Origin: Priestia megaterium
Lineage (GTDB): Bacteria; Bacillota; Bacilli; Bacillales; Bacillaceae_H
Reading direction: 5' to 3'
Assembly (NCBI RefSeq): GCF_009497655.1
Contig: NZ_CP023317.1
Coordinates: 3,811,501-3,875,500 of the forward strand
Length of the DNA stretch: 64,000 nt
Shown here piece by piece: positions 13,294 through 36,106 of the stretch. Position 1 is the first letter of the stretch, and every line of letters starts with the position of its first letter. The translations under genes were made by a program, and so were the position numbers. The notes beneath the pieces are model-generated. The model did no database searches. It was not told the origin of the DNA and worked only from the letters and a program-made list of their open reading frames with translations.

Positions 13294-13865
13294 TCGCTCC
13301 ACCTTCTTTCAAATACTTCTCTTTCACATTTCATCAGTACACCCGTTTTATCAGGCAGCGACACTTCTTTCATGAATTGAAACCCGCATTTTTTAAATAC
13401 TGCAATCATTTTTTCATTTCGTCTATCTGGCTCCGCTATTACTTTAGCAGTGTCTGCTACGTTAAACTTATGCTTTAGCAAACTAAGAAGGAGCGGATAA
13501 ATATAGCCTTTTCCTAAAAAAGCAGGTTCTCCAATCAATAAATGAATTCCTTGATCTCCTTTTTCATAAGGATAATAGTTACTGATTATGTCACCTTCAA
13601 CCATATAAGATTCCCAATAGCTCATAGGTACACCATCAATTTCTCCGATTAGCAGCTTTTGATGAGAATCAGCTAGAAATGTTTTTAAATGCTGCTCGTA
13701 CGCCTGTTTTGAAATATTTAAATTCCAATACGGAATAACATGCGGTTCATGCATCCACTTGTACAGCCGTTCGAAATCTTTTGCAAAAGAAACAGAGCGA
13801 AAGGTAATGCTCTGCTCCTTTTGCTGAATCATAAATGGATACTGCGTTTGCAAGGCTGATTTCAT
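13272..13865 (-). CDS. GNAT-type siderophore N-acetyltransferase (RhbD/IucB-like)
   Basis: Acetylates the hydroxylamine to the hydroxamate, using acetyl-CoA. The protein has 197 residues. ITFRSVSFAKDFERLYKWMHEP is typical of the AlcB/IucB/RhbD group, and the acetyl-CoA loop lies in LIGEPAFLGKGYIYPLL. Its ATG overlaps the stop of the preceding synthetase as ATGA, and its 3' end overlaps the monooxygenase. Acetyl, rather than a long acyl chain, is inferred from schizokinen being the known product of this species. Confidence 0.9.
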   Translation of the reverse strand: MKSALQTQYPFMIQQKEQSITFRSVSFAKDFERLYKWMHEPHVIPYWNLNISKQAYEQHLKTFLADSHQKLLIGEIDGVPMSYWESYMVEGDIISNYYPYEKGDQGIHLLIGEPAFLGKGYIYPLLLSLLKHKFNVADTAKVIAEPDRRNEKMIAVFKKCGFQFMKEVSLPDKTGVLMKCEREVFERRWSEWNNGTF

Positions 13866-15616
13866 ACACGTACACCTGCAGATTCGAACAATGGATTCTC
13901 GACATTTACATAAACAGACTGTGTTTCAAGAGATCCTACCAGCTCATCCATATCATGAACGCGCGTTAAGAAGTTGGCTTTGCAAGGAAGCACTTTCTCT
14001 TCTAACATTGATGAAACAAGCCCTGTATGATCATTTTCTTTGTACATCTCGATCTCTTGTCGCAAAATCAATAGCAGATCTGATTCTTGAGCGAGGCCAG
14101 CTGCACCAAAAGCGTTAACTAATCCTAAAATATGATTAAAAAATACGTAATAACGAAATCTTTCTTCTGCTACAGCGTCATCACAGACCGTATCGCTTTC
14201 TCCGTTTAAGGAAGGAAGCAGCTTGCGAAGCTCTTGTTCCTTTGATTTCATAAAGTAATAGCCTTGGTTATCGCGGTAGTAAAACACCGATGGATATCCG
14301 TTTTCATCAAGTTTAATAACGGAGTTTTGCTGATGAGCTTCCAGCGCAATTCCTTTTTGAGTGTAAAGCCACATCATAGGATGAAAAGATACGTCTAAAT
14401 AGCGTTTAAACCAGCGCTTGCTTACATCTTCAGTCGTGCTATTTTCACTTGCAGCAATGTGATGAATAATATTTTCAATTTGAGAAGCTTCTCCAAACAC
14501 ATGATCTTGACACAAACTGGCTAGAAGTGTTGTACGATCCCCTTGCTTACCTTGAAAAGGATTGCTTCGAATCATAACTTCAAATCCAAGCTCCTTTTCT
14601 CCAAGCGTGATGTAAGCAGGGTCTTCAATTACTTGAAAAGCCGGATGATTTTCGTGAAGCTCCGCCTGTAATCCCTTTTGCAATAAACGGCTAACTTCTA
14701 CCCCTCTGCTTAATTCTTTGCGTTTGTTCACTCTCAGTGAATTAGTGATTTTTACCGGAATGGAAAATTTATACATCACATCTGCATTGTTACTGTATAC
14801 GGTTCGAACAGACGAAGTCGGATAAAACGGCTGACCGTGTGGCCCTAGATAAGCAAGCCTGCCTTTTTGAATCCATTGGCACACTTCTTCTTTTCCTAAA
14901 AGATAACGAGCTTGTAGCGGATGCATAGGTATAAGTGAATAATCGTCCGCTTGGCAATAAGACTGTATGAATTCTTCAGAAACCGTCTTATCTTTTTTCA
15001 GCTGCTCTTTAATAAGCTGTGAAGCGGTTTGATTTCCAGCGGACTGTTCTGCAACGAGAGATGCATGCGCTTTAAAATAATGAAGCTGAAATTCCCCGTT
15101 CACTTCAGGTCCAAATACCTCTTCTTCTTCAGGTAATATCCCTTGGCGGCTTTTAGGTGTTGGATGCAGCTGGTGCCCAATAAGCAGGGACTGTTCAGAT
15201 TCTAAGAACGTTTTGTCCCATTTATAGCACGTTTCTAACTCTTTCTGCCTTTTTTCAATGAATAATTTCATATTTTCATAGCTTAATAGAACACGTATAA
15301 TTAGCTCATTTACTTGTACTAAATGATCCGTTACTTCTTTTAAAAGAAAGGCCAAAAGAGTGACGATATCTAACTCCTTAATCTCCTCTTGCTGAATACG
15401 ATAAGAAAAGTTTGAAAAGAACAAGTGACGTCCGGTGGCTGAGCGGTACTTTACTGGAAAGTAAAGAGTTACCGGCTGTTTTTCTAGTCTAAGAACGAGC
15501 GTTTCCTCACTTTTTATTTCTGAAACGGACTGCCATACTCCCTTACCTGTCTCTCGAATATAGCAATTAATAATGTTTTGCATCGTAATAAAATTAGCCG
15601 ATAACTGAGCGTTCAC
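13862..15616 (-). CDS. NIS siderophore synthetase, IucA/IucC family (RhbC-like)
   Basis: Second citrate-condensing synthetase of the operon, 584 residues. Motifs: LIPMHPLQARYLL (HPxQ), the SxRT motif in YPTSSVRTVYS, KFSIPVKITNSLRVNK and C-terminal LEAHQQNSVIKLDENG. The start is a GTG at 15616 supported by AAGGAGGAG at good spacing; it lies 23 bases inside the decarboxylase gene. The ATG 33 bases on would lack a site. It matches rhbC in the rhizobactin order and probably makes the first citrate amide bond. Confidence 0.9.
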   Translation of the reverse strand: MNAQLSANFITMQNIINCYIRETGKGVWQSVSEIKSEETLVLRLEKQPVTLYFPVKYRSATGRHLFFSNFSYRIQQEEIKELDIVTLLAFLLKEVTDHLVQVNELIIRVLLSYENMKLFIEKRQKELETCYKWDKTFLESEQSLLIGHQLHPTPKSRQGILPEEEEVFGPEVNGEFQLHYFKAHASLVAEQSAGNQTASQLIKEQLKKDKTVSEEFIQSYCQADDYSLIPMHPLQARYLLGKEEVCQWIQKGRLAYLGPHGQPFYPTSSVRTVYSNNADVMYKFSIPVKITNSLRVNKRKELSRGVEVSRLLQKGLQAELHENHPAFQVIEDPAYITLGEKELGFEVMIRSNPFQGKQGDRTTLLASLCQDHVFGEASQIENIIHHIAASENSTTEDVSKRWFKRYLDVSFHPMMWLYTQKGIALEAHQQNSVIKLDENGYPSVFYYRDNQGYYFMKSKEQELRKLLPSLNGESDTVCDDAVAEERFRYYVFFNHILGLVNAFGAAGLAQESDLLLILRQEIEMYKENDHTGLVSSMLEEKVLPCKANFLTRVHDMDELVGSLETQSVYVNVENPLFESAGVRV

Positions 15617-17114
15617 GTAATCGCTCCTCCTTTTTCTCCAACTGTTTGCCTAAAGCAACAACTTCCTCTAAATGAGTGACAACAGAATCAAATGTAATCA
15701 TAGGATTTAACATCGTTAGTTTTAAATAGACTCGTTCTTTATGCTTTGTTTTTGCCATGATAAACGTGCCTTTTTCGTATAAGTGCTGCTGAATAAGCTG
15801 ATTCAACCTATTTTCATAATGCTGCTGCTTTTGACAATCACTATATAAAATATCTGGTACATAGCGAAAGACAACCGCGTTCATATAAGGGTCATTTAAC
15901 ACTTCTACATTCCTTTGTTTTTGTAAGTAGTCAGCTGTTTGCTTAGCAGTTTCAATCGTGTGGTCAACCATTTCTCCGTATTCATTTGCACCTACTGCAC
16001 CGAAAGTAAGCCAGAGCTTCAAGGCGTCAAACCGCTTTGTCGTTTGAATGCTGCGGTCTACTAAGTGCACATGCTCATCTTCTTCAGGATTTAAATAATC
16101 TGCATGAAGCTGAATGTGTTTAAACATAGCTGAATTTTTCAGCAAAAATGCTCCGCAGCTTACAGGCTGATAAAACCATTTATGAAAATCCATCGTAATA
16201 GAATCTGCTCGTTCAAGAGCTTTTAAGCGTTCACGATATTTATGCGAAAATAGCAGCGCTCCTCCATAAGCGGCGTCAGCATGGAGCCAGAGCCCTTCTT
16301 TTTTAGCAAGCTCACTTATTTCAAAAAGAGGATCTACGCTCCCAAAATCTGTTGTACCTGCCGTTGCTACAATAGCAAAGGGAAGGTTGCCCTGAGCTTT
16401 CACTTCCTGTATTGCTTCTTCTAAGCTTTTTATATCCATTTCATGCTGCTCATTGCACTTTACACTCACCACTGCACGCATGCCCAGCCCAAGCTGAGCT
16501 GCAGATTGTTGCACCGTAAAGTGCGCTTTTTCCGAGCAGAAAATCCGCAGTTTTTTAGCTTGGAACGGTAAGCCTTCTTTACTAACATCCATTGAAAAGG
16601 CAGAATGGCAATATTCATTACGAGCAAGCAGGAGTCCCATATAATTTGACTGCGTCCCTCCGCTTGTAAAAATGCCTGAAGATGAGCTTGGATAACCAAT
16701 TTGTTGTGTTAACTCATCAATCACTTTATCTTCTATATACGTAGCTGCCGGACTTTGATCCCACGAGTCCATAGATTGATTCAAAGCAGAAATCATCACT
16801 TCCGCAGCAAGAGCCGGTATAATCGGAGGGCAATGCAAGTGCGCCATTGCTCCGGGATGCGAAATATGAAGCGAATGATTCATCACTACTGCTTGTACGT
16901 TATCAAATAAATCTTCTAGCGGCTGTTCGTGCTTGCTAAAATAGACAGAACGATTGACTAAGTTTGACAGCTCTTCAACGTCGATGTGAGTATAAGCGGA
17001 CTTTAATTCATAGTAGTGACGTTTGATCATCTCAGTCATTCCGCCTATCATCGCTTCATAATTCTCGAGGCTTTCCTTTGTTGATGATAAAAACCACTTT
17101 TCAAACGGTGCCAT
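15594..17114 (-). CDS. L-2,4-diaminobutyrate decarboxylase (RhbB-like), PLP enzyme
   Basis: Group II PLP decarboxylase of 506 residues producing 1,3-diaminopropane from 2,4-diaminobutyrate. The catalytic region SITMDFHKWFYQPVSCGAF carries the His-Lys with the Schiff-base lysine; ATAGTTDFGSVDPL and LWLHADAAYGGALL are the other family blocks. It starts one base after the aminotransferase stop (TAG-A-ATG) and ends inside the synthetase gene. The aminotransferase beside it fixes the substrate as diaminobutyrate rather than glutamate or an aromatic amino acid. Confidence 0.92.
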   Translation of the reverse strand: MAPFEKWFLSSTKESLENYEAMIGGMTEMIKRHYYELKSAYTHIDVEELSNLVNRSVYFSKHEQPLEDLFDNVQAVVMNHSLHISHPGAMAHLHCPPIIPALAAEVMISALNQSMDSWDQSPAATYIEDKVIDELTQQIGYPSSSSGIFTSGGTQSNYMGLLLARNEYCHSAFSMDVSKEGLPFQAKKLRIFCSEKAHFTVQQSAAQLGLGMRAVVSVKCNEQHEMDIKSLEEAIQEVKAQGNLPFAIVATAGTTDFGSVDPLFEISELAKKEGLWLHADAAYGGALLFSHKYRERLKALERADSITMDFHKWFYQPVSCGAFLLKNSAMFKHIQLHADYLNPEEDEHVHLVDRSIQTTKRFDALKLWLTFGAVGANEYGEMVDHTIETAKQTADYLQKQRNVEVLNDPYMNAVVFRYVPDILYSDCQKQQHYENRLNQLIQQHLYEKGTFIMAKTKHKERVYLKLTMLNPMITFDSVVTHLEEVVALGKQLEKKEERLRERSVIG

Positions 17115-17115
17115 T

Positions 17116-18480
17116 CTATTTATTCACCCACTTCTCTTCTGCTGCTTTTACCGCTTCTTCAAATTTCGTTAATATTTCATCCGTTTGTTGTTTTGTTAAA
17201 ATTAATGGAGGAAGCAAACGAATAACAGCACCATGCCTTCCACCGACTTCTAAAATGACGCCTCTGTCAAAACATTCTTTTTGAATCAGCTTAGCTAACT
17301 CACCGTTTGCAGGATGACTGCCGATTTTATTAGCCGGCTTTGTCGCGTCGATGATTTCAACACCCAGCATCAAACCTCTTCCGCGTACATCCCCAATCGA
17401 CAATACTTGCTTTTGAATATGTCTTAGCTGGCTTTGAATGTAGGCTCCCAACTCGTGAGCATGCGCAGGTAAGTTTTCTTGTTTTATAAATTGCAGAGTA
17501 GCCCGTCCTGTAGCCATTGCAAGCTGATTTCCTCTAAAGGTGCCGATATGTGCACCTGCTTCCCATTGATCAAGCCTTTTATCATACAGAACAACGGATA
17601 ATGGAAGGCTTCCTCCAATTGCTTTAGACAGTACTAATACATCCGGTTCGATATCAGCGTGCTCAAATGCATACAGTTTTCCTGTTCGTCCAATTCCAGT
17701 TTGAACTTCATCCACAATAAGCGGAATATCTCGTTCTTTTGTAATTCGGCGAAGCTCTTTTAACCACGGAATCGGTGCTGGAACAGAACCTCCTTCTCCT
17801 TGTACAATTTCTACTACAACACCCGCTGGAGTCACAATTCCGCTTTCAGGATCATCCAGCATATTTTCAATATATGTACTAATATACGTGTGTCCTTCAG
17901 CACCTACGCCAAAAGGGCAGCGATATTCATATGGGTAGGGTAAAAAATGTGTATCTGGCACTAGCGCATGAATGTGCTTTTTTGGACTCGTTGTACCGCT
18001 GATGCTTAATGTTCCGTGTGTGGAGCCGTGATATCCCCCTTGAAAAGATAAAATCGTTCGGTTGCCTGTTGCTGTTTTCACAAGTTTCAAAGCCGCTTCA
18101 ATTGCGTCTCCTCCAGTGGGACCGCAAAACTGAATTTTCGCTTTGTTTGCGAAATTTTCCGGCAAACTAGCGAACACTTCATCGATAAAAGCTTCTTTTA
18201 CAGGCGTTGTTAAATCTAATGTATGTAAAGGAATAGATTTTGCTAAAACGTCTTGAATTGCTTCATGAACTACGTGATGGTTATGACCAAGAGCAAGTGT
18301 GCCGGCTCCGGCTAAACAATCAATATACTCTTTTCCATCCATATCCGTGATCACGGCGCCTTTTGCCTGTTTAATCGCAATAGGAAGGCGTCTAGGATAA
18401 GATCTTGCATTGGATTCTCGTTCATTTTGCATAGCAAGCAGCATTTCGTTTGATGTAAGTTGTTTCGTTGACGTTGACAT
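17116..18480 (-). CDS. Diaminobutyrate-2-oxoglutarate aminotransferase (RhbA/Dat-like)
   Basis: Class III PLP aminotransferase of 454 residues that makes L-2,4-diaminobutyrate from aspartate semialdehyde and glutamate. Motifs: GPTGGDAIEAALKL, GGYHGSTHGTLSISG, IVDEVQTGIGRTGK and the PLP lysine in VLSKAIGGSLPLSVV. The start ATG lies seven bases after AGGAGG. It is the first gene of the operon, directly behind a Fur-controlled promoter. Its gene neighbours favour this role over ectoine (EctB) or GABA transamination; no ectA/ectC is present. Confidence 0.93.
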   Translation of the reverse strand: MSTSTKQLTSNEMLLAMQNERESNARSYPRRLPIAIKQAKGAVITDMDGKEYIDCLAGAGTLALGHNHHVVHEAIQDVLAKSIPLHTLDLTTPVKEAFIDEVFASLPENFANKAKIQFCGPTGGDAIEAALKLVKTATGNRTILSFQGGYHGSTHGTLSISGTTSPKKHIHALVPDTHFLPYPYEYRCPFGVGAEGHTYISTYIENMLDDPESGIVTPAGVVVEIVQGEGGSVPAPIPWLKELRRITKERDIPLIVDEVQTGIGRTGKLYAFEHADIEPDVLVLSKAIGGSLPLSVVLYDKRLDQWEAGAHIGTFRGNQLAMATGRATLQFIKQENLPAHAHELGAYIQSQLRHIQKQVLSIGDVRGRGLMLGVEIIDATKPANKIGSHPANGELAKLIQKECFDRGVILEVGGRHGAVIRLLPPLILTKQQTDEILTKFEEAVKAAEEKWVNK

Positions 18481-18742: not shown

Positions 18743-19435
18743 TTACTTTTGTTTATTCATCGTCTCTTTTGCAGCTTTTACACTCCTTGGGTCAAGCGGT
18801 TTCGTATACTGACAATTTACTCGAACCCCTGAACCAATACGAATTTCTTTCACGGGAGTAACGGATAAGAACGCTTGAAGATTTTCAGGCTTCAGCCCTT
18901 TTGTCCCGATTAAAATAATATCTTTATCTTTCATTCTTCTTAACAGCTTTTTAATATGAGGAATACCGTTTAGCGCACTTTTATCCGCTCCCGAAGTCAT
19001 AACACGCTGAATTTGCTTATAGCTTAAAAGCGTTTCAAGCGCCTTTTCTTGATCACTGATTTCATCAAACGCTAAATGAAACGTTACGTTCATTTCTCCT
19101 GCCGCATCCAGCAGTCGCTTTAAAGCTTGCTCATCGATAATTTTGTCTTCTGTTAAACAGCCAATTTCAATTCCATCAATGCCAATTTCTCTTGCATAGT
19201 GAATATCTTCAATCATTGTTTGCAAATCATCTTCATCATATTGAAAAGATTGATTATGTGGACGGATCATCACAAATATTGGGATATGTATCGTTTCTTT
19301 CACTTTTTTCATCAAACCGTAGCTTGGGGTTAAGCCGCCTTCACCGATTCCAGTTACAAGACTTATACGATCGGCACCATGTTCCTGGGCAACTTTAGCA
19401 TCATGTAAGGTTGCAGCTGTGACTTCTAATATCAT
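18743..19435 (-). CDS. cutC: CutC family protein (TIM barrel)
   Basis: CutC-family TIM-barrel protein of 230 residues: MILEVTAATLHDAKVAQEHG at the N terminus, ADRISLVTGIGEGGLTPS, IPIFVMIRPH, FHLAFDEISDQEKAL and the C-terminal RIGSGVRVN. The family was linked to copper tolerance in E. coli, but a direct copper role is disputed and no enzyme activity is established. Here the gene follows a methionine/histidine-rich repeat protein on the same strand, a context that makes copper worth testing, although a hairpin lies between the two. Confidence 0.9.
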   Translation of the reverse strand: MILEVTAATLHDAKVAQEHGADRISLVTGIGEGGLTPSYGLMKKVKETIHIPIFVMIRPHNQSFQYDEDDLQTMIEDIHYAREIGIDGIEIGCLTEDKIIDEQALKRLLDAAGEMNVTFHLAFDEISDQEKALETLLSYKQIQRVMTSGADKSALNGIPHIKKLLRRMKDKDIILIGTKGLKPENLQAFLSVTPVKEIRIGSGVRVNCQYTKPLDPRSVKAAKETMNKQK

Positions 19436-19563
19436 TCTAAAAACACCCTTTCCCCTTTAATATAGAGCTTTTGCCTTCTTTTCCCTGTATTTATACTTAA
19501 AAAACTCTACCAAACTCTCTTATGTAAGAAAACACCCAAAAGATGTGATTAATATTTGCAAAA

Positions 19564-19620
19564 AATTGAATGTCATGGAAAAAGAGTAAGAACTATTCTT
19601 TTTCTCATGACGTTTCAATT
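19564..19620 (-). terminator. Large inverted repeat after the Met-rich gene, probable terminator
   Basis: Interrupted palindrome: AATTGAA-TGTCATG...CATGACG-TTTCAATT with inner arms AAAAAGA/TCTTTTT. It lies ~65 bases past the stop of the Met-rich protein gene. The T-tract is poor, so it may instead be an RNA-stability element. Confidence 0.5.
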
Positions 19621-19686
19621 AATAAAATTCTATATTTATACTAAAGATCCAAAAATACATCCCTTTTATCTAGGGTAAAGGATTTA

Positions 19687-20523
19687 TTAAAAAGAGCGTG
19701 GATTTGTTTGTTGCATGAACATCCACTCATTTAAAGAATGAGGCTGCTGATGACCAACGGGTGCTGAGAAATCGCGGCATCCGCAATCATGCATCGGCAT
19801 TTGACCCATCCCTCCGTGCATTGGCGGCATTCCACCTTGCATCGACATTTGACCCATTCCTCCGTGCATTGGTGGCATTCCACCTTGCATCGGCATTTGA
19901 CCCATTCCTCCGTGCATTGGCGGCATTCCACCTTGCATCGGCATTTGACCCATTCCTCCGTGCATTGGCGGCATTCCACCTTGCATCGGCATTTGGCCCA
20001 TTCCTCCGTGCATTGGCGGCATTCCACCTTGCATCGGCATTTGGCACATTCCTCCGTGCATTGGCGGCATTCCACCTTGCATCGGCATTTGGCACATTCC
20101 TTCGTGCATTGGCGGCATTCCACCCTGCATCGGCATTTGACCCATCCCTCCGTGCATTGGCGGCATTCCACCCTGCATCGGCATTTGACCCATCCCTCCA
20201 TGCATTGGCGGCATTCCGTCTTTCATCGGCATTTGATCCATCCCTCCATGCATTGGCGGTAGTTCTCCGTACATTGGCATTTGATTCATGTCTTTTTGCA
20301 TAGTTGGCATTTGACTCATTCCGCCATGCATCGGCGGCATTCCGTCTTTCATCGGCGGCATTTCTCCGTGCATCGGCATTTGACTTGTGCCTTCTTGTAT
20401 CGGCATTGCCTGCATTTCCTTTGCAGAAGGCATTGGCGGCATTTTAGCAGGTTTAGGTGCTGCTTGCATATATGGATTGGATATCGGTTGTCCGGTTTGT
20501 TTCATTCCATACGAATTTCTCAT
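19687..20523 (-). CDS. Met/Gly/Pro-rich tandem-repeat protein of unknown function
   Basis: I do not recognise this 278-residue protein. A short N terminus (MRNSYGMKQTGQPISNPYM) leads into ~210 residues of repeats. The regular part is nine near-identical 16-residue units MPPMHGGMGQMPMQGG, preceded by three looser ones carrying KDG or YGE variants. Two units have Cys for Gly (GMCQMP). The tail MPMHDCGCRDFSAP...NEWMFMQQTNPRSF is unique. There is no signal peptide or membrane segment. MxxM, MH and CxC groups could bind Cu(I), and cutC is next; Met-rich, low-complexity proteins also occur in spore coats. Both roles are inference. RBS GGAAGGAG precedes the ATG. Confidence 0.75.
   Translation of the reverse strand: MRNSYGMKQTGQPISNPYMQAAPKPAKMPPMPSAKEMQAMPIQEGTSQMPMHGEMPPMKDGMPPMHGGMSQMPTMQKDMNQMPMYGELPPMHGGMDQMPMKDGMPPMHGGMGQMPMQGGMPPMHGGMGQMPMQGGMPPMHEGMCQMPMQGGMPPMHGGMCQMPMQGGMPPMHGGMGQMPMQGGMPPMHGGMGQMPMQGGMPPMHGGMGQMPMQGGMPPMHGGMGQMSMQGGMPPMHGGMGQMPMHDCGCRDFSAPVGHQQPHSLNEWMFMQQTNPRSF
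19795..20227 (-). repeat. In-frame 48-bp tandem array inside the Met-rich gene
   Basis: About nine copies of a 48-base unit, nearly identical over successive units (for example GTGCATTGGCGGCATTCCAC recurs on the plus strand). The third-position differences are few, so the array has expanded or been homogenised recently. The unit length is a multiple of three and lacks stops in several frames, which is why other frames stay open. Confidence 0.9.
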
Positions 20524-20625
20524 TTTTAAGGGCTCCTTCCCATTCTCTTACTCTGTTTACGTTATTCTTTTTACAATCAATCTGAAATTCGTCCATACGA
20601 AAATAGGCTTTCTACACATTCAAAA

Positions 20626-20655
20626 TTGTAGAACGTATAAGAAAAAAGCTATAAT
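20626..20655 (+). promoter_or_regulatory. phr: Sigma-A promoter of the photolyase gene
   Basis: TTGTAG (20626-20631), 18-base spacer, TATAAT (20650-20655), about 33 bases before the start codon. Confidence 0.55.
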
Positions 20656-20688
20656 CGAGGCAAATTGCAAATAGAAAGGTGGCACATG

Positions 20689-22116
20689 ATGAAGAAAACC
20701 ATTATCGTATGGATTCGAAAAGATTTTCGGTTAGTAGATAACCCAGCTCTATTTCACGCAGCGAAAGAAGGAATGGTTGTACCTGTTTATATTCATGATG
20801 ACGATGAAGAAAGCTCAATGGGAAGTGCAAGTAAATGGTGGCTTCACCATGCGCTAAATGACTTCAAAACTTCGATCGAAAAAATAGAAGGAACGCTGAT
20901 TATAAAAAAAGGAAACCCTAAAGATGTGTTGCAAAAGTTAATCCATGAAACGAATGCGCAAGATATTTATTGGAACAGACGCTATGAACCACATGCGCTA
21001 AAAAGAGATAAAGAGCTTCAAGCTTTTTTTTCAGAGCAACAAATAAATATTCGCACATTTGAGGGATTTCTCCTTCATGAACCTTGGAAAATCAAAAAAG
21101 AAAATGGAGATCCTTATAAAGTATTTACAGCTTACTATAAAGCTTCTCAAAAACATGCCGTATCTTCTACTGTAAAAAAAGTTACTTCCATCCACGCCTT
21201 TTCTTCATCGATTGAATCTCTTTCAGTCTCAGATCTGGATTTGCTTCCAAGCATACCGTGGGATGAAACGATTAAGTCTACGTGGGACGCTACGGAACAA
21301 GGCGCTATTAATAGCTTCAAAACGTTTTTAAAGAATAAGCTGCTGCATTATGAAAAAGGACGAGATTTTCCTGCTGAAGCATTCAATTCATTCCTTTCTC
21401 CTTATTTCGCTTCAGGACAGCTCTCAGCTCGCGTTCTTTATCATTATTTAAGAAATAAAGCAGAAAAAGTAAGCTCTAATGCTTTTGAACATCAAGCTGA
21501 AATGTTTATTCGCCAACTTGTATGGAGAGATTTTGCTTATCAGCTGCTTTATCATTTCCCACACACTACAAGTGAACCGCTGAATGAAAAATTCAAGCAA
21601 TTTCAGTGGGCGGACGGCAATGAAGAGCTTCAAGCTTGGAAAAATGGAAAAACCGGCTATCCCCTTGTCGATGCCGGAATGCGGGAGCTGTGGGAAACAG
21701 GGTTTATGCACAATCGAGTTCGAATGGTAGCTGCTTCCTTTTTAGTAAAACACCTTTTAATTCATTGGAAACACGGAGCAAATTGGTTTTTTGATACCTT
21801 AGTAGACGCAGATTTAGCTAACAACACAATGGGCTGGCAGTGGGTTGCAGGCTCGGGAGCAGACGCCGCGCCATATTTTCGTATCTTTAATCCAACTGCT
21901 CAATCAGAAAAATTTGATAAAGAAGGAGAATATATTAAAAAGTGGCTTCCAGAGCTTAGAGATCTGCCTTCCCCCTACATTCATAAACCTTGGGAGGCTC
22001 CAGCAGACGTATTAGAAAAAGCAAACGTTACGCTTGATAAAACATATCCCACTCCAATTGTCGATCATAAAGCAGCTAGAGAGCGTGCGCTAGAGCATTA
22101 TCAAGACATCAAATAA
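20689..22116 (+). CDS. phr: Deoxyribodipyrimidine photolyase (class I CPD type)
   Basis: Light-driven repair of cyclobutane pyrimidine dimers. The 475-residue product has an N-terminal antenna-binding Rossmann domain (IIVWIRKDFRLVDNPAL) and a helical FAD domain with GRDFPAEAF, FIRQLVWRDFAYQLLYHFP, KTGYPLVDAGMRELWETGFMHNR and NNTMGWQWVAGSGADAAPYFRIFNP, including the Trp and Asn residues expected of photolyases. Of two adjacent ATGs I chose the second (20689), six bases from AAAGGTGG; 20686 is only three away. It is divergent from the Met-rich gene, single-gene, with a very strong terminator. Confidence 0.95.
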   Translation: MKKTIIVWIRKDFRLVDNPALFHAAKEGMVVPVYIHDDDEESSMGSASKWWLHHALNDFKTSIEKIEGTLIIKKGNPKDVLQKLIHETNAQDIYWNRRYEPHALKRDKELQAFFSEQQINIRTFEGFLLHEPWKIKKENGDPYKVFTAYYKASQKHAVSSTVKKVTSIHAFSSSIESLSVSDLDLLPSIPWDETIKSTWDATEQGAINSFKTFLKNKLLHYEKGRDFPAEAFNSFLSPYFASGQLSARVLYHYLRNKAEKVSSNAFEHQAEMFIRQLVWRDFAYQLLYHFPHTTSEPLNEKFKQFQWADGNEELQAWKNGKTGYPLVDAGMRELWETGFMHNRVRMVAASFLVKHLLIHWKHGANWFFDTLVDADLANNTMGWQWVAGSGADAAPYFRIFNPTAQSEKFDKEGEYIKKWLPELRDLPSPYIHKPWEAPADVLEKANVTLDKTYPTPIVDHKAARERALEHYQDIK

Positions 22117-35893: not shown

Positions 35894-36106
35894 TTATTTA
35901 ATTTGGCCGTTCATTGCTTTCATCATTTGGTTAATTTTTTTCTGCGATGGTTTCATGCCCATTTGCATCATCATCATTTTTAACATTTGTTCATTAATTG
36001 GTGGATTTTTCTTCAGATAGCTCATCATATACTTACGAGCAATGAAAAATCCTAGCGCTATCCCAACAATTAATGCTAGAACACCAACTAGAATATACAT
36101 TCCCAT
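35894..36106 (-). CDS. yneF: YneF family membrane protein (UPF0154)
   Basis: A 70-residue protein with a single N-terminal TM helix ([20 protein letters not shown]) and a cationic, Met-rich tail: [25 protein letters not shown]. Length and tail are those of the UPF0154 family, whose role is unknown. AAGGAGG lies ten bases before the first ATG; the second ATG two codons on is possible. In B. subtilis yneF follows sirA, as here. Confidence 0.9.

Follow-up and report, generated by a model that had tools for sequence, protein, structure and literature searches.

A methionine-rich tandem-repeat protein, whose gene lies next to cutC in Priestia megaterium, is probably a late mother-cell protein of the spore surface in which methionine density is the selected trait. 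A spore-surface protein was considered probable, rather than a copper protein tied to cutC, because the promoter of the gene resembles some promoters at sugar loci that are probably of spore-surface type. Across two genera the repeat array turns over, while the methionine fraction, the slot, the promoter element, and a Cys pair persist. As composition and not sequence is kept, the family is followed poorly by sequence search and well by synteny and promoter. The host is a spore former common in laboratory and industrial use. The window is the whole stretch of DNA analyzed, 64,000 nucleotides long.

A preliminary description had placed the gene at 19687–20523, which was exact (minus strand, 278 aa), and its account of the protein agreed with what was measured. 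The nine nearly identical 16-residue units that it reported were found at residues 104–247, with degenerate units ahead of the nine in-register ones, and one methionine per 3–4 residues corresponded to 70 Met in 278 aa (25%). The mean in the window was 3.3% Met and the next highest value 5.5% (38 ORFs of at least 200 aa, the Met-rich ORF included). The two units said to carry Cys are those at residues 136 and 152, and the CxC tail is DCGC (Table 1). As the longest hydrophobic run was four residues, neither a membrane helix nor a signal peptide can be seen; the lack of the latter had also been claimed. Tandem Repeats Finder gave 10.3 copies of 48 bp at 19790–20284 (93% matches), and the score of 801 was the top among its five rows for the window. 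The 48-bp repeat leaves several other frames open at 19731–20303 (up to 180 aa), which were regarded as by-products because the repeat length is a multiple of three.

Neither Pfam (at E 0.001) nor NCBIfam (at E 1) gave a match for the protein, and no description of it was found in the open-licence literature searched (Met-rich, spore-coat, and B. megaterium spore topics), so the earlier statement that no described family has this repeat holds for these sources. AlphaFold, run with a nine-row alignment, returned a mean pLDDT of 47.7 and a pTM of 0.17, with no fold except one short C-terminal helix. This low-confidence model is of the disordered type, and the protein is predicted to be intrinsically disordered.

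Table 1. Coordinates of the Met-rich gene, its signals, and its neighbors in the window.
Feature	Position	Strand	Details
Met-rich repeat protein CDS	19687..20523	-	278 aa, ATG start
Nine 16-aa in-register units (MPPMHGGMGQMPMQGG), residues 104–247	19783..20214	-	Tandem Repeats Finder and translation
DCGC Cys-pair motif, C-terminal tail	19777..19788	-	translation
Ribosome-binding site GGGAAGGAG	20533..20541	-	read directly
Promoter-like element GCCTA-n9-GGACGAATTTC-n16-GAATAACGTA	20558..20608	-	spacing identical across 12 genomes from 5 lineages (2 genera)
GCCTA (TAGGC on the other strand)	20604..20608	-	GCCYA in 11/11 genes
GAATAACGTA, sigma-K-like -10	20558..20567	-	GAATAnnnTA in 11/11 genes
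Terminator-like hairpin between the Met-rich gene and cutC	19573..19610	-	stretch 19550–19630, z -4.62
cutC, next gene downstream	18743..19435	-	PF03932, 177.6 bits
DNA photolyase, divergent neighbor	20665..22116	+	PF03441 and PF00875

The same slot was occupied in every genus genome examined. A Met-rich repeat ORF was located upstream of cutC, on the same strand, in 10 of 10 Priestia genomes (G000–G009), and both genomes of a sister genus (G010, G011) had a Met-rich ORF there. An ORF was counted as Met-rich if it had at least 12% Met and at least 60 aa, in cutC neighborhoods of about 3 kb or more on each side; 91 genomes had a cutC match, and neighborhoods were covered in the 10 genus genomes plus 40 further ones, the sister genus among them. 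No such ORF was present in the 38 other cutC neighborhoods examined, four of which come from two further genera of the family. Two shorter ORFs beside cutC among the 40 others (53 aa with 19% Met and 54 aa with 13% Met) were taken as chance and set aside.

Protein searches with the window's sequence gave matches in six of the ten genus genomes and none on plasmids. The order-wide protein-alignment search matched 9 of 397 genomes, every one in the genus; it missed the two sister-genus genomes, found by synteny, and G004, where the gene is split with its 3' part on one contig and the promoter and start on another. Four near relatives were 91–94% identical in the alignment. The gene apparently occurs as two tandem copies in G009 (L032 4323–5846), and this duplication may be an assembly artefact because an N and a stretch of duplicated promoter sequence separate the copies.

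The promoter-like element ahead of the gene had the form GCCYA-n9-GGACNAANTYC-n16-GAATAnnnTA in 11 genes, with invariant spacing and 31–34 nt ahead of the start codon, and all 21 specified positions were present in 12 of 12 genomes of the re-scored set, G004 included. Read on the other strand, GCCYA becomes TRGGC, which we take to fit the GerE half-site core TRGGY, and GAATAnnnTA presumably resembles the sigma-K -10 CATAnnnTA, with A replacing the first C. The distance from GGAC to the -10 is 23 nt, and no sigma-K -35 (AC) occurs at the usual spacing, which a passage of PMC517825 gives as 14–16 nt between -35 and -10. Sigma-K promoters that depend on an activator may lack a -35. The element was assigned to the Met-rich gene and not to the photolyase because G007 retains it without a photolyase there. 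A simple promoter scan gave no sigma-70-type site on the gene's strand from 20523 to 20680, and a sigma-70 promoter just upstream was rejected; comparison by eye with the consensus sequences for sigma-H, ECF, and sigma-E factors gave no accepted reading of the element. The photolyase is the divergent neighbor in both genera (by Pfam in the window and L105; by eye in L106 and at the remaining genus loci), with the exception of G007, and the contig of G004 does not show it. In G003 and G008 it is read as two ORFs of 126 and 291 aa (L012 6682–8132, L015 6772–8222) and looks interrupted.

When the own genome was searched with the strict pattern, the element was found at one site only, upstream of the Met-rich gene, and with just this one match the genome's own coat genes do not visibly share it. 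Across 397 genomes of the order, a scan that tolerated up to three mismatches gave one match each in 19 genomes, 10 of the genus and 9 outside it, against 4 in the reversed control. In the scan pattern, the gap from GCCYA to GGAC exceeded the true one by a single base, and true sites consequently cost two to three of the three mismatches; its sensitivity was therefore low, and the two sister-genus sites were missed. With the spacing corrected, 914,612 bases of collected loci were re-scored, and the matches outside the genus reached 20 of 21 positions in L147, 19 in L145, 18 in L162, 17 in L146, and 16 in both L160 and L158. A further match in L031 (G005) scored 16, and the next best in the window 14.

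The four best of the nine re-scored extra-genus loci all belong to a set of sugar-nucleotide loci, to which five of the nine matches belong: two with intact target genes, two with remnants, and one without a readable target. Where no family match is given, the names of neighboring genes in relatives were assigned by eye. In L145, the element is followed by an operon that has, besides a nucleotidyltransferase, an rmlB-like dehydratase, RmlD, and an RmlC-type epimerase. In L162, it precedes a galU-like gene (301.5 bits, below the cut-off of 326.8), from which a UDP-glucose dehydrogenase gene diverges; a gene of the CotS spore-coat family (327.5 bits against a cut-off of 172.7) lies about 3.7 kb from the galU-like gene. 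By eye, the target in L146 was recognized as the remnant of an rmlA-like gene next to an epimerase and a glycosyltransferase, and that in L160 as a galU-like remnant of 27 codons adjacent to a UDP-glucose dehydrogenase. No target was readable in L147, where the element adjoins a UDP-glucose dehydrogenase. Independent support amounts to about three families, since L145–L147 are one genus. The remaining matches (L158, which adjoins an ECF-sigma gene, L159, L161, and L163) were taken as chance, being about as many as the control gives. It was also observed that the element survives ahead of decayed nucleotidyltransferase remnants in two genera (L146/L168, L160/L166).

From their gene content, we infer that the element-bearing sugar loci are putative spore-polysaccharide clusters. 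In B. subtilis, the paralogous nucleotidyltransferase genes ytdA, spsI, and yfnH are described in a section of PMC4670728 as being under sigma-K, with YtdA localizing like a coat protein, and the sps operon is described in a section of PMC517825 as sigma-K-controlled and GerE-enhanced. For B. thuringiensis, part of PMC4750369 reports exosporium genes under sigma-K control, several of them with GerE. Likely relatives of ytdA and spsI in other genera carry the promoter-like element of the Met-rich gene; ytdA and spsI encode enzymes, unlike the Met-rich gene, and the comparison concerns regulation only. A promoter-based search of this kind is suggested as a way to place orphan coat-type genes in a regulon. 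The same promoter context bears on the idea that the protein stores methionine or sulfur for use in spore outgrowth and is degraded upon germination. A very high Met content in a spore former would suit such a store, but the promoter looks mother-cell-type and the protein would for this reason lie outside the spore core, so we consider a reserve unlikely.

The preliminary description had offered two readings, one of them a copper-buffering protein linked to CutC. Taken further, the protein would buffer Cu(I) and work with CutC, its Met and Cys clusters holding cytosolic copper. The adjacency on which that reading drew was confirmed and extended, as the gene adjoins cutC codirectionally in all 12 genomes from the two genera, and dense Met and a Cys pair are present in each; Met clusters could, by analogy, bind Cu(I). 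However, a terminator-like hairpin lies between the genes. The stretch 19550–19630 folds more stably than 200 of 200 shuffles, a control made for the window's hairpin only; the consensus terminator scan of the window did not list the hairpin. A hairpin whose tail has no fewer than 5 T in 10 positions precedes cutC in 10 of 12 genomes, with a sequence that differs by lineage; in G007 and G009 the hairpin is weak. The two genes are therefore likely to be transcribed separately and to be linked by position, although a functional link is possible given adjacency across two genera. Further points against copper are that His is not kept across lineages (4–6% in the window's species group, 1–2% in the others), that the protein has no export signal, that no such ORF of at least 60 aa was found beside cutC in the 38 other genomes examined, and that the element recurs at sugar-nucleotide loci and not at copper genes. 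The known Met/His copper proteins Ctr1, SilE, and CopC have Met clusters in common with the Met-rich protein, which differs from them in the absent export signal, the unconserved His, and the lack of a visible copper operon. A search of the open-licence literature for Met-rich repeats and copper gave no paper. The copper reading is thus weakened, and we regard it as improbable.

The units themselves have been replaced between lineages. They are MPQMPMQGGMMPNSMQG in G007, MQGMP in G002 and G004, QMPMMNGQEMMPG in G005 and G009, and of the MPGMGQGMSGQP type in the sister genus. Across the lineages of both genera, Met stays at 23–32% and Leu+Ile+Val at 0–4.4%, and richness in Gly, Pro, and Gln is common to all. 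A Cys pair stands beside the array in every lineage (CxC, CxxC, or C-n4-C), as DCGC in the window's group (five genomes), G007, G002, and G004, and as CPSC or CSTGTC by lineage in G005, G009, G010, and G011. The two Cys within units of the window's gene are additional to this pair.

Unit positions were compared in three of the five lineages (G007 and G002 left out, one of the two G009 copies used). Met positions were changed in 11/220 cases vs 52/484 at other positions in the first lineage (Fisher p 0.015), 6/135 vs 49/216 in the second (p 2e-6), and 10/128 vs 58/288 in the third, the sister genus (p 0.001); these p-values overstate independence because the units are related copies. At the DNA level, bases changed in 2.4% of Met-codon positions vs 22.9% of third positions of non-Met codons in the window's group, and the corresponding values were 2.0% vs 28.2% in the second lineage and 7.3% vs 27.8% in the sister genus, where first and second positions of other codons had the same rate as Met codons.

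Retention of Met while other residues vary would also be expected of a cytosolic oxidant sink of stationary phase, recycled by methionine sulfoxide reductases and unrelated to spores, and so would a Leu+Ile+Val content of at most 4.4% even though one-step changes of ATG yield these residues. Against such a sink, no methionine sulfoxide reductase gene was recognized by eye among the neighbors, and the promoter context indicates spore-type loci; we give it little credence. If the ORF were a product of DNA repeat expansion and largely or wholly functionless, the replaced units and the protein search matches confined to one genus would be accounted for. This reading is very improbable, since in 12 genomes the promoter element is retained, as are the slot, the Met content, and the Cys pair, and given the contrast between Met codons and third positions in the window's group.

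The other reading in the preliminary description, a protein of the spore coat or outer layer, gained from the element at nucleotidyltransferase genes and from a likeness to SafA, but found no backing in coat homology, as no homology to a coat protein was detectable. SafA (TIGR02899), an inner-coat morphogenetic protein, was above the NCBIfam cut-off in 10 of 10 genus genomes, and all five copies read (L051, L052, L056, L058, L060) have DCGC within a C-terminal region rich in Met, Pro, and Gln, in the style of the Met-rich protein. Unlike the latter, SafA has an N-terminal LysM domain, about 6% Met, and a different locus. Homology between the two was rejected (best BLASTP alignment, E 0.20), and DCGC is possibly a shared anchoring motif. 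In the own genome, the DCGC DNA pattern had 18 matches vs 14 for the reversed control and was not clearly enriched; ORFs of at least 40 aa read DCGC at 6 of the 18, two of them being the Met-rich gene and SafA. DCGC as a coat marker was consequently not upheld.

Lineage-specific low-complexity proteins are known from spore surfaces, namely those of the CotG/ExsB type, rich in Lys, Arg, Ser, and His, and BclA, with collagen-like Gly-X-Y repeats. They share with the Met-rich protein fast repeat turnover, narrow distribution, and compositional constraint; we know of no spore-surface protein of either type with 25–32% Met. A very high Met content in a small disordered protein occurs in MrpX of Azospira, a periplasmic Met-rich oxidant scavenger paired with a sulfoxide reductase. 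The Met-rich protein differs from MrpX in having no signal peptide and no sulfoxide reductase neighbor recognized by eye.

As a spore-surface protein, the product would be a cytosolic, disordered chain rich in Met, Gly, Pro, and Gln that becomes a component of the spore's coat, crust, or exosporium; we infer both the timing in sporulation and the surface location. The Cys pair next to the array, whichever form it takes, would anchor or cross-link the protein. The array would turn over quickly through unit duplication and replacement, with selection retaining dense Met and little Leu, Ile, or Val. The thioethers would most likely form a sacrificial oxidant-absorbing or adhesive matrix, and the oxidant-sink role of Met is the favored and least supported part of this proposal. 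A more specific form, a spore methionine armor made of a disordered, Cys-tethered surface protein that is selected for thioether density and has its units swapped between species, is put forward tentatively and is itself rather doubtful. Its methionines would absorb peroxide, hypochlorite, and singlet oxygen before these reach the spore, and they might be renewed only at the next sporulation. If the protein is on the spore surface, its gene would offer a genetic handle on whether a Met-rich layer protects from oxidizing disinfectants or tunes adhesion.

Some other features were noted on the way. A second cutC-like gene, 37% identical, is located at G000:C1:736074-736628, and two cutC matches were obtained in six of the ten genus genomes. 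On the minus strand of the window, a row at 13862–18480 with a class-III aminotransferase and a PLP-dependent decarboxylase (both by Pfam) and an IucA-like synthetase (by eye) is presumably a siderophore-type cluster. A second small Met-rich ORF (35894–36106, minus strand; 70 aa, 20% Met) has one N-terminal hydrophobic stretch, and it resembles a known family of small membrane proteins.
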